Origin: Armatimonadota bacterium
GTDB taxonomy: Bacteria; Sysuimicrobiota; Sysuimicrobiia; Sysuimicrobiales; Humicultoraceae
Direction: 5' to 3'
Assembly (NCBI GenBank): GCA_031081715.1
Contig: JAVHMA010000001.1
Coordinates: 1 to 64,000, forward strand
Length of the DNA: 64,000 bases
Positions within the stretch are counted from its first letter, which is position 1, and each line of letters starts with the position of its first letter. A program made the translations under genes and the position numbers. The notes beneath the pieces were generated by a model. The model had not been told where the DNA came from, searched no databases, and was given only the letters and a program-made list of their open reading frames with translations. This document shows, one piece after another, positions 21,575-47,931 of the stretch.

Positions 21575-22552
21575 CTAGAAGTCCTGCGCCGTGGCGGCCA
21601 TGATCGTGGTGTTGCGGCCGGCGCGCGCGCGGGCCAGCGCTTCCTCGGCCCGCGTCAGCAGGGTCTGGTCGTCCTCGCCGTCGCGCGGGTAGCAGGCGAG
21701 GCCGATGCTGACCGTGTGCGTCATGGGGAAGGGATGATCGGGGAGCGAGAACGTCGAGGACTCCACGGCGCGGCGAAGGCGCTCGGCCACGACGAACGCG
21801 CCCTCCAGCGGCGTCTCCGGGAGGATCAGCCCAAAACGACCGCCGCCCAGGGCCGCCCGGAAGTCCACCTCGCGCGTGGTGCGCGTCAGGCTGCCGGCGA
21901 GGTGCGTGGAGACCGCCCGCAGGCCTTCCTCGCCGACCATCTCGCGGATCTCGTCGTCCTGGTCGAGGGCGACCAGGCCGAGTGTGAACGTGCGGCCGAA
22001 CCGCCGGCTGCGCACAAGCTCGCGGCGCACCGCCAGCGCGAAGTAGTTGGCGTTGTAGAGGCCGCTTGCGGGTTCCACCAGCACCTGGCGGCGCAGCCGA
22101 TCGCGCAGCTCGTCGATCTGCTCCTGCGTCGCCAACGAGCGTCGGTCGCGCTGCCGCTCGTGGCGCCGGATCGCCTCAAGGACGCCGATCGACAGCAGGT
22201 TGTTGAGGAACTGGACGGCCTCCACCGTGAGCCCCTGCGCGGGCCCGCGCTCGGCCAGGTAGTCGAGGACCACCGGCTTGATCTGGAGCAGCGCGCGGAT
22301 GACCTCGTCGAGCGGCACCTGGCCGGCGAACATCTCCTGGCTGAAGCGGCCCGCGAACTCGGTGAACGGCTCGGCCCCGCCGCTCTGCGCGGCGTCCACC
22401 AGCGCGTCCATGCCCGCGACCAGGTGGCGATCCAGGCGCGCAGCGTCGCGCCACACCAGGCTACTGTGCGGGAGGTTGGCGATCTGGCCGGCCCATCGCG
22501 CGGCCAGGGTGCGGCGGTGCGTCCGAATCCGGTCGACCGCGTCCGGGGTCAT
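21575..22552 (-). CDS. GGDEF-domain protein with degenerate active site
   Basis: 325 residues. The N-terminal half ([20 protein letters not shown] onwards, to about 120) looks like an RsbRD-type helical sensor domain. The C-terminal half is a GGDEF fold ([31 protein letters not shown]), but the signature reads GGGRF in [14 protein letters not shown]. The catalytic Glu is therefore Arg and the metal-coordinating position is Gly, so diguanylate cyclase activity is unlikely. It may bind nucleotide as a regulator. It converges tail to tail with the HD-GYP gene five bases away and diverges from the roadblock gene. Confidence 0.85.
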
Positions 22553-23994: not shown

Positions 23995-24114
23995 CGCCCC
24001 GGGGCAGGATTGAGGGAGGACTAGGCGAAGCCTCCGCAGGGAATACAGACATACTGCCGTGAGACGCCGCCGGGGCAGGGACCGGCGGGCGCGTGACAAC
24101 TGCAGACGAGGACC

Positions 24115-24212
24115 TCCGAACGGGCAAACCCGCCGCGAGGCGGGGACGCAAAGCCAACGGGGGCGTGAGGCTCGCGCACGCGGGCGCACGGCCGGCCGGG
24201 TTGCCGAAGGGG
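24115..24212 (+). ncRNA. Cyclic di-GMP-I (GEMM) riboswitch 1
   Basis: Conserved blocks in order: GGCAAACC (24123-24130); a stem closed by a GCGA tetraloop (CCGCC-GCGA-GGCGG); GGGACGCAAAGCC (24143-24155); a variable P2 arm; and CGGCCGGGTTGCCGAAG (24193-24209). These match the c-di-GMP-I aptamer, including the GNRA loop that docks into a receptor. It precedes the binding-protein operon starting at 24278, with a terminator-like hairpin between. Whether the ligand is c-di-GMP or 3',3'-cGAMP depends on one base I cannot align with certainty. Confidence 0.92.
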
Positions 24213-28956: not shown

Positions 28957-29014
28957 GGGGTCGCCCCGGAGGTCTAGACCGGGGTCGCTGCGGGTATAGA
29001 TTCTGACGCAGACC

Positions 29015-29043
29015 TTGCGCAAATGTTCTCGATGGTCTATGCT
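29015..29043 (+). promoter_or_regulatory. Promoter for the riboswitch 2-sigma factor transcript
   Basis: TTGCGC (29015-29020), a 17-base spacer, TATGCT (29038-29043). Four of six matches in the -35 and four of six in the -10, with ideal spacing, and about 30 bases before the aptamer. Confidence 0.55.
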
Positions 29044-29078
29044 GGTATGGCTCGTCGAGGGCTAACTTCATAGCAACC

Positions 29079-29162
29079 CCGAAATGGCAAACCCATCGCG
29101 AGGTGGGGGCGCAAAGCTACGGGACCGCACTCATTCGTGGTCGGCCGGGCTGCCGAAGGGAG
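29079..29162 (+). ncRNA. Cyclic di-GMP-I riboswitch 2
   Basis: GGCAAACC (29086-29093), a GCGA-capped stem (CCATC-GCGA-GGTGG), GGCGCAAAGC (29108-29117), a P2 arm (GGGACC...GGTC) and GGCCGGGCTGCCGAAG (29143-29158). It lies 130 bases upstream of a sigma factor gene. GGGCTGCC (29147-29154) is exactly complementary to GGCAGCCC (29180-29187), which also forms the first arm of a downstream terminator-like hairpin, so the two folds exclude each other. Confidence 0.92.
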
Positions 29163-29181
29163 GAGTGTCGGCCTCTTGGGG

Positions 29182-29205
29182 CAGCCCGAGGGGCTGATTC
29201 ATTTT
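29182..29205 (+). terminator. Terminator-like hairpin of riboswitch 2
   Basis: CAGCCC (29182-29187), loop GAG, GGGCTG (29191-29196), then ATTCATTTT just before the GGGAGG ribosome site of the sigma gene. The stem is short. In the ligand-bound fold the aptamer would keep its GGGCTGCC strand, freeing this hairpin; that predicts lower sigma output at high ligand. Confidence 0.6.
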
Positions 29206-29217
29206 GGGAGGCGCACC

Positions 29218-30027
29218 ATGGTCGCGCGGACCGCGCAGCGCCAGGTTGTACGTCGAGAGCAGGTCACACCGCCGCAAGACGACGCCGACACCCTCATGGT
29301 GCAGTACGTCGAGTCGCCGACACCCGAGATCCGCGAGCGGGTCGTCGCGGCCTGCACGCCGCTCGTGCGGCGGATCGCCTCCGAGTTCGTGTTCTCCGGC
29401 GTGCCCACCGATGACCTCATCCAGGTCGGCTACATCGGCCTCCTCAACGCCATTGCGGCGTTCGACCCCACCCGCGGCGCGAAGTTCGCCACCTACGCGA
29501 GCTACCTGATCCGCGGCGAGATCCGCCACTACCTGCGCGACCAGCGCGACACCATCCGCAAGCCGCGCTGGCTGCAGAAGATCAACACGCAGATCGAGGA
29601 CGCCGTCGGCAAGTACGTCAGCGAGAACGGCCGGTTCCCCGGGGTCGAAGACCTCTCCCAGGAGCTGAACATCGAGGAGGAGGGGTTGCTCGAGGTCCTC
29701 CGCACGCGCGAGGTCCTGCGCACCGTCTCGCTCGAAGGTGGCGAGGAAGACGGCGGCGACCTGCGGGTGGACCGCGACCGGATCCGGCACCGCACGCACA
29801 TCAGCTTTCAGCTCCCCATCGAGGACCGCGTGGTCCTGATGGAGGCCATGGAGTCGCTCAACAGCCTCCAGCGGAAGGTGCTCTACTACCTCTTCTACAC
29901 CGACCTCACGCAGATGGAAGCCGCTAAGCGCATCGGCATCTCGCAGAAGCACGTGTCGCGCGTCCTGGCATCGGCACTGGCCAAACTCCGGGGACTGATG
30001 GGCGCGCCGTCGCCCGGAACGCTGTAG
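29218..30027 (+). CDS. Sigma-70 family factor (SigB/F/G-like group)
   Basis: 269 residues. Region 2 spans about residues 45-115 (VRRIASEFVFSGVPTDDLIQ, GYIGLLNAIAAFDP, KFATYASYLIRGEIRHYLRD), region 3 about 120-180 (GRFPGVEDLSQELNIEEEG), and region 4 about 205-260 (LNSLQRKVLYYLFYTDLTQM, AAKRIGISQKHVSRVLASAL). The region 3 content and length fit group 3 factors such as SigB/SigF or a FliA-like factor. No anti-sigma or anti-anti-sigma gene is adjacent. A GGGAGG site precedes the ATG. A c-di-GMP riboswitch ahead of a sigma factor suggests a two-tier switch for pilus or surface genes; its targets are not shown by sequence. Confidence 0.93.
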   Translation: MVARTAQRQVVRREQVTPPQDDADTLMVQYVESPTPEIRERVVAACTPLVRRIASEFVFSGVPTDDLIQVGYIGLLNAIAAFDPTRGAKFATYASYLIRGEIRHYLRDQRDTIRKPRWLQKINTQIEDAVGKYVSENGRFPGVEDLSQELNIEEEGLLEVLRTREVLRTVSLEGGEEDGGDLRVDRDRIRHRTHISFQLPIEDRVVLMEAMESLNSLQRKVLYYLFYTDLTQMEAAKRIGISQKHVSRVLASALAKLRGLMGAPSPGTL

Positions 30028-30040
30028 GTGGGGGGAGCGG

Positions 30041-30400
30041 ATGATGTCGCAGCTGAAGGACGTCCTGATGGACCTCTCCAAGGTGGAGGGGGTGCTCGCC
30101 GCGCTGGTCGTCGGCCGGGACGGCTTCGTGGTCGAGGGGATGACCTCGGAGGAGGCCGTCGACCTCGAGGCCGTGGGCGCCATCGTGGCCAGCAACATCG
30201 CGGCCTCGGAGTCGATGGGGCGTGAGATGTCCCGGGGCACCCTGCGCAGCACCCTGATCGAGTTCGACGACGGCCCGATTGCGATCGGTCCGGCCGGGCC
30301 CGACGCCGTGCTCGTGGTCGTGGGGAACCGGCAGGCCAACCTCGGCCGCATCCGGCTCGAGATGCGGCGGAACAGCCAGCTCGCGGCCGCGCTGGTCTAA
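30041..30400 (+). CDS. Roadblock/LC7 domain protein (paralogue 2)
   Basis: 119 residues: LKDVLMDLSKVEGVLAALVV, GRDGFVVEGMTSE, LEAVGAIVASNIAASESMGR, then DAVLVVVGNRQANLGRIRLE. This is one roadblock/LC7 domain closer to MglB-type than paralogue 1. It begins 13 bases after the sigma factor and shares its riboswitch-led transcript, so it is probably part of the same response. MglB-like proteins set polarity of type IV pili in Myxococcus through MglA, but no MglA gene is present here. Confidence 0.88.
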   Translation: MMSQLKDVLMDLSKVEGVLAALVVGRDGFVVEGMTSEEAVDLEAVGAIVASNIAASESMGREMSRGTLRSTLIEFDDGPIAIGPAGPDAVLVVVGNRQANLGRIRLEMRRNSQLAAALV

Positions 30401-43619: not shown

Positions 43620-43927
43620 GTCCGCGGGCCGCTTCCGGGCAGGAGGCGCGAGGGTTCCGGGAAGTTTGGAGTGGATTCACAATCGCGGGGGTGGTCCAGC
43701 AGGAGGCCCCGCGTCCGCGCCGAACACCGCGACTCCTCCGGCGTCTAGGGCGACTGCGCCCTGGGCATAAGAGCGTGTGAGTTGAACGCGCGTTGCCAGC
43801 ACGTGCGATGGGGATGTTCGAACGGGGGGGAGGTGAGGCGCTCCAGGGGAGAGCCGGAGTGAAGACGCCCTGGACGGAACGAACGAGGTAACCACGGAAT
43901 CATGCCTGAGGGCAAGGAGGGATGACA
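43620..43927 (+). other. 308-base non-coding stretch upstream of pilin 1
   Basis: No credible gene on either strand. A 6-bp hairpin AGGGCG-ACTG-CGCCCT lies at 43747-43762, and TCCAGGG near 43845 can pair with CCCTGGA near 43868. No c-di-GMP aptamer core (GGCAAACC/GCAAAGC) and no convincing promoter boxes were found, though the pilin promoter should lie here. It ends with a strong AAGGAGG ribosome site at 43914-43920. Confidence 0.6.
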
Positions 43928-47854: not shown

Positions 47855-47931
47855 TCGCGTCTAGGAGGGCCGTGGCGTGGGTATGCTCCAGGTGAACGTA
47901 TTTCCGGAACATGCCGGATCCGGAGCGTGCC

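Follow-up and report, generated by a model that had tools for sequence, protein, structure and literature searches.

A type IV pilus cluster in the 64,000-nt stretch of DNA analysed here (the window) contains a gene for a sigma-70 family factor preceded by a c-di-GMP-I aptamer. What does this leader do to the sigma gene, and how far could the signal travel beyond it? The reading that we hold to be probable is that the riboswitch is a transcriptional OFF switch of the sigma factor, whose inferred SigB-type regulon includes pilus genes.

In the absence of ligand, the aptamer 3' strand GGGCUGCC (29147-29154) would pair with GGCAGCCC (29180-29187), aided by a GGGAGG:CCUCUU helix, and this antiterminator would block a 14-bp terminator and let the sigma gene and its Roadblock neighbour be transcribed. 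With c-di-GMP bound, the aptamer would retain GGGCUGCC, the terminator at 29167-29198 would form and transcription would end before the sigma gene. The sigma factor itself would read GTCTAG-N14-GGGYAT promoters before its own leader, pilin genes, the PilT gene, genes for HD-GYP phosphodiesterases and some further leaders that carry aptamers. At high c-di-GMP, expression of the pilus regulon would consequently fall, by way of the sigma factor and also, for part of the targets, by direct action. The aptamer, the terminator, the switching pair, their conservation, the synteny and the promoter motif all come out of the computation itself; the elements of the leader and the genes that follow it are these:

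29015-29043 (+), housekeeping-type promoter TTGCGC-N17-TATGCT (TTGCGC 29015-29020, TATGCT 29038-29043)
29077-29158 (+), c-di-GMP-I aptamer (G20 at 29086, A47 at 29113, C92 at 29153; P2 with the GNRA loop GCGA)
29147-29154 (+), switching strand GGGCTGCC, the 3' strand of the aptamer (P3/P1 side)
29158-29163 (+), GGGAGG, able to pair with CCTCTT at 29172-29177 and to lengthen the antiterminator (fold with the antiterminator forced)
29167-29198 (+), terminator hairpin of 14 bp with the loop GCAG at 29181-29184 (terminator scan, folding and covariation)
29180-29187 (+), anti-aptamer strand GGCAGCCC, at the terminator's loop and top
29199-29205 (+), U-rich terminator tail TCATTTT
29206-29211 (+), ribosome-binding site GGGAGG (read from the sequence)
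29218-30027 (+), sigma-70 family factor of SigB/SigF/SigG type, 269 aa, ATG start at 29218
30041-30400 (+), Roadblock/LC7 (MglB-like) protein, conserved neighbour of the sigma gene

The sigma factor and its candidate regulon

The gene that begins 59 nt after the end of the aptamer had been taken to encode a sigma-70 family factor, and its product does match regions 2, 3 and 4 of that family (PF04542, PF04539, the latter at its cut-off, and PF04545). TIGR02980 (SigB/SigF/SigG) is the best of 62 matching families with 184.7 bits, a score below the NCBI curated cut-off of 234.35, and the protein is therefore filed only as a SigB/F/G-like sigma-70 factor. SigB-type models outscore FliA_WhiG on it (184.7 vs 107.4 bits). 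No RsbW/SpoIIAB-type partner-switch kinase adjoins the gene, and the seven HATPase_c_2 matches in the genome are all partial and lie within larger frames. The order sigma-Roadblock-PilB, together with PilT, PilC and other pilus genes, forms a neighbourhood shared across the taxonomic order.

The motif GTCTAG-N14-GGGYAT is found at three sites in the window, where 0.01 are expected:

28972-28997 (+), GTCTAG-N14-GGGTAT, SigB-type promoter 5' of the sigma leader and candidate for autoregulation
43743-43768 (+), SigB-type promoter before the pilin gene at 43922, candidate target
47859-47884 (+), SigB-type promoter before the pilin gene at 47911, candidate target

Seven strict copies exist in the genome, all before pilus or c-di-GMP-related genes, namely two pilins, PilT, two HD-GYP proteins, a surface protein preceded by an aptamer, and the sigma factor; an aptamer lies between motif and gene only for the sigma gene and two others. 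A looser form, GTCTAG-N12-16-GGGYA, occurs at 66 sites in family f1; the spacer is 14 nt long at 50 of these, and each of the other lengths accounts for 3-5. Among the sites fetched, 13 of the 24 with N14 stand before a pilin, PilT or an aptamer, compared with 0/9 at other spacings. Factors of the SigB/SigF/SigG family recognise promoters of the type GTTTAA-N12-15-GGGTAT. The motif has the same layout as the SigB consensus of B. subtilis, GTTTAA-N14-GGGTAT (PMC9847131), and promoters of Streptomyces SigB homologues resemble it (PMC8346170). A search of the window for the FliA/WhiG promoter consensus gave one site only, with two mismatches. From this pattern we infer that the window sigma reads GTCTAG-N14-GGGYAT promoters. 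The relay from messenger to regulon that the preliminary description had put forward gains support, at the level of sequence, from the SigB-type motif before the pilin genes.

The promoter upstream of the sigma leader agrees with the motif at 12/12 positions here and at 11/12 in G001, and it is not retained in the related genus g7; among the genomes compared, this candidate autoregulatory promoter was seen only in G000 and G001. Among the genes of G000 with a SigB-type promoter upstream are those for HD-GYP proteins (L002/L143 and L145), and one of these is preceded by an aptamer as well. Feedback of such HD-GYP genes on the messenger is possible.

The riboswitch might control the sigma factor while the GTCTAG-N14-GGGYAT regulon belongs to a paralogue, in which case the relay to the pili would be wrong. 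A sigma factor of the same kind, 46 % identical, is encoded on contig C12 of the genome and could read SigB-type promoters; SigB homologues cross-recognise promoters (PMC8346170). However, it is the window sigma and not this paralogue that sits in the pilus cluster in every family examined, and the motif precedes both the window sigma's own leader and pilin genes of the same cluster. We therefore regard assignment of the regulon to the paralogue as unlikely.

The expression platform

The housekeeping-type promoter at 29015-29043, already proposed in the preliminary description, has a TTGCGC/TATGAT counterpart in genus g7 but matches the consensus weakly, and a sigma-70 consensus scan did not report it. 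The same description had noted that GGGCTGCC (29147-29154) is exactly complementary to GGCAGCCC (29180-29187), and both coordinates and match are correct. The energy of this duplex is -18.5 kcal/mol, compared with -11.6 +/- 1.9 kcal/mol for shuffled downstream sequence (p 0.003). As for the short terminator hairpin, it is present as a 6-bp stem at 29182-29196, but only as a sub-fold nested in the stronger 14-bp stem at 29167-29198, and it was rejected as the main terminator. The OFF logic still holds with the longer terminator because the anti-aptamer strand sits in its loop and top: GGCAGCCC runs from the final base of the 5' arm through the GCAG loop to the third base of the 3' arm.

The 14-bp terminator has a folding energy of -26.6 kcal/mol (z -6.1). 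When the window is aligned with 5-6 relatives, two-sided changes are seen at six terminator pairs, and 88 % of the alignment cells pair, compared with 37-69 % once the register is slid. The tract TCATTTT is short, and this counts against the terminator reading. Folding yields a terminator and an antiterminator that are mutually exclusive, with the 3' strand of the aptamer taking part. When the transcript is folded step by step, the antiterminator has the lowest energy for 3' ends at 29188-29194, whereas in a static fold at full length the terminator wins by about 2.5 kcal/mol; the switch must therefore be kinetic or ligand-dependent. A ligand-competent aptamer combined with the terminator is less favourable by another 8 to 16 kcal/mol in the stepwise model, a figure that excludes the energy of the ligand. 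This behaviour suits a cotranscriptional OFF switch without proving one; for the C. difficile switch Cd1, cotranscriptional OFF switching has been modelled experimentally (PMC9262584). The predicted OFF direction agrees both with the folding model and with the OFF behaviour of the functional class-I switches of C. difficile (PMC6366702).

The aptamer/anti-aptamer pairing lies in the same register in five of six relatives, and in G001 it is shifted by one base, as read by eye. Conservation of the pair in homologues, proposed as a check in the preliminary description, extends over the nearest clade and most of family f3, about 20-27 nt after the aptamer, but not to family f4, where the pair is not significant by a shuffle test and the leaders use another layout. 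Platforms differ by family, with terminators in f1 and ribosome-site-enclosing hairpins in most f3 leaders.

A separate pairing is available to the aptamer 5' end, as CCCCGAAATG (29077-29086) can pair with CATTTTGGGAGG (29200-29211), a segment that includes both the ribosome site and the tail of the terminator. The minimum-energy fold without ligand contains this pairing, which may bear on translation.

It is conceivable that the aptamer does control the sigma gene but switches it ON, or that it acts on translation instead of termination. Class-I switches of both signs are known (PMC6366702), the f3 leaders appear to sequester the ribosome site rather than to terminate, so that platform type varies inside the lineage, and the fold of the aptamer 5' end onto the ribosome site is a possible one in the window. 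On the other hand, the U-tailed terminator is strong and covarying, its loop and top overlap the anti-aptamer strand as fits an OFF terminator switch, and the f3 platforms are likewise read as OFF switches. An ON or translational mode seems to us quite improbable, and a terminator-based OFF response remains the preferred reading of the platform.

The aptamer and its ligand

The c-di-GMP-I aptamer announced upstream of the sigma gene is recovered by cmscan at 29077-29158 (+), with RF03167 (c-di-GMP-I-GGC) as the best Rfam model (67.2 bits, E 9.9e-14, cut-off 59). The model proposed for checking it, RF01051, also matches in a whole-genome search (64.3 bits, cut-off 35), though RF03167 scores higher. 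Nevertheless, the aptamer is not filed as an altered-specificity GGC variant, since alignment places an A at 29113, where the variant consensus has G at position 47 (RF03167 GACGCGAA). The mark of cGAMP (GEMM-Ib) aptamers, an A at position 20, is replaced by G at 29086 in the window. Among 28 sigma-linked aptamers, G20 is kept in 27 and both A47 and C92 in all 28. Judged by these positions, the ligand-contacting bases of the sigma-leader aptamer are of the canonical RF01051 type, and a GGC-variant ligand and cGAMP were rejected on the bases at positions 47 and 20. The single exception at position 20 is L019 (1310-1387, genome G008; same aptamer in L076), where A, the substitution that moves this class toward cGAMP, stands in place of the G seen in its congeners.

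The genome encodes eight GGDEF domains. The GGDEF position of the GD aspartate marks Hypr (cGAMP) enzymes, and the canonical aspartate is retained in all four of the domains whose signature a motif search could read, which led us to reject a Hypr enzyme among these four; they look like ordinary diguanylate cyclases, that is, c-di-GMP synthases. One GGDEF domain is encoded near the cluster, at 21620-22072 (-). Since G20, A47 and C92 are near-invariant and the readable GGDEF domains canonical, c-di-GMP is the expected ligand, and the predicted aptamer presumably binds it in vivo. That the aptamer senses some other cyclic dinucleotide, either 3',3'-cGAMP or the ligand of the GGC variant, could be argued from the top Rfam match and from the G20A change in L019, but is highly improbable in view of the G20, A47 and C92 counts, the A that the window has in place of the variant's G, and GGDEF domains resembling c-di-GMP synthases.

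In total, the genome holds 11 c-di-GMP-I-type aptamers, three of them inside the window. The two others in the window flank the cluster, at 24113-24208 (+) and 37278-37194 (-), and precede genes for a periplasmic binding protein and a PilB-like ATPase. The genome's aptamers other than that of the sigma leader precede HD-GYP proteins, pseudopilins (recognised from their own sequences), a CAP protein, a binding protein and PilB. A leader motif resembling ACAACTTCATAGC lies at 29064-29074 of the window, and similar motifs, about 5-25 nt 5' of the aptamer, recur in sigma leaders and in some non-sigma leaders (e.g., L006, L022, L024, L032, L065 and L101-L103).

Conservation, known systems and significance

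The comparison set consisted of the 43 genomes of the order, and the same 43 make up the phylum rank, which fits the Sysuimicrobiota (CSP1-3) with their one class and one order (PMC11604079). In 28 of these genomes, belonging to four families, the sigma gene has an aptamer at a distance of 37-260 nt upstream: in 10/10 genomes holding the sigma orthologue in f1, 10/10 in f3, seven in f4 and one in f6. With about 5-6 aptamers per 3-Mb genome, we estimate the chance of finding one before a given gene at about 3 in 10,000. Retention of the pairing in 28 genomes of four families means that the aptamer is not a chance neighbour of the sigma gene, and chance neighbourhood was ruled out on this ground. 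The paralogous sigma genes that were checked have no aptamer. Homologous sigma genes lacking the aptamer had been named as an argument against the switch, and this argument applies in part: the syntenic f5 orthologues, in the same gene cluster, have no aptamer, even a weak one, up to E 1. In genus g14 of f4 the aptamer is found 2.5 kb upstream, before PilT-like genes. Three loci of genus g15 in the same family (L101, L102 and L103) show a single aptamer followed by two sigma genes in tandem.

Two components of such an arrangement are already known, namely a sigma gene downstream of a c-di-GMP riboswitch (C. difficile sigD) and c-di-GMP control of a pilus sigma factor (RsiG-WhiG). In C. difficile, the class-I riboswitch Cd1 (Cdi-1-3) precedes the flgB operon and relays through sigD to tcdR (PMC6366702). 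The window leader shares with it the class-I aptamer, the terminator, the proposed OFF response and a downstream sigma factor passing the signal to a wider regulon. However, sigD is one gene within a 23-kb flagellar operon, whereas the sigma gene of the window immediately follows its aptamer, is of SigB/F/G and not FliA type, belongs to a type IV pilus cluster of an unrelated phylum and is paired with a SigB-type promoter set. In Rubrobacter, c-di-GMP controls a pilus sigma factor through RsiG-WhiG (PMC8325347). There, as proposed here, the sigma factor is shut off at high c-di-GMP and acts on genes for type IV pili and for c-di-GMP turnover, but the ligand is sensed by a protein anti-sigma acting on a WhiG/FliA-type factor, in contrast to an RNA leader, a SigB-like sigma and a different promoter motif in the window.

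Other riboswitches for cyclic dinucleotides are linked to pili as well. The C. difficile pilA1 switch Cdi-2-4 is of class II and governs type IV pilus production in response to c-di-GMP (PMC6366702); it is an ON switch whose direct target is the pilin operon, whereas the window switch is of class I and would act as an OFF switch via a sigma factor. The cGAMP (GEMM-Ib) riboswitches of Geobacter precede pilus and electron-transfer genes, and their selectivity tracks the position equivalent to Vc2 G20 (PMC6456294, PMC9262584). The window, with G at that position, shares the aptamer superfamily and the linkage to pilus genes with them. The targets of the Geobacter GEMM-Ib switches are structural genes, not sigma factors.

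The novelty lies in an aptamer and a sigma gene that form a dedicated pair within a pilus cluster, kept through much of the phylum and accompanied by a SigB-type promoter set that includes further riboswitch-bearing genes; we found no earlier report of such a pair in the open-licence papers searched. We put at about even the chances that this amounts to a phylum-wide, two-tier coherent feed-forward of RNA and sigma factor, in which the riboswitch would gate a SigB-like sigma driving pilus genes, some of them riboswitch-bearing and including phosphodiesterases that would feed back on the messenger, with autoregulation via the gated leader in some members (G000 and G001). The shift of platform between families, from a terminator in f1 to ribosome-site masking in f3, offers a natural series on platform evolution under a fixed aptamer and gene. 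If the proposal is true, the regulon of an uncultured lineage could be read from a promoter motif alone. Moreover, an RNA element would do in this phylum what the RsiG anti-sigma does in Rubrobacter, tying c-di-GMP to a type IV pilus sigma factor; the same regulatory task would have been solved independently.
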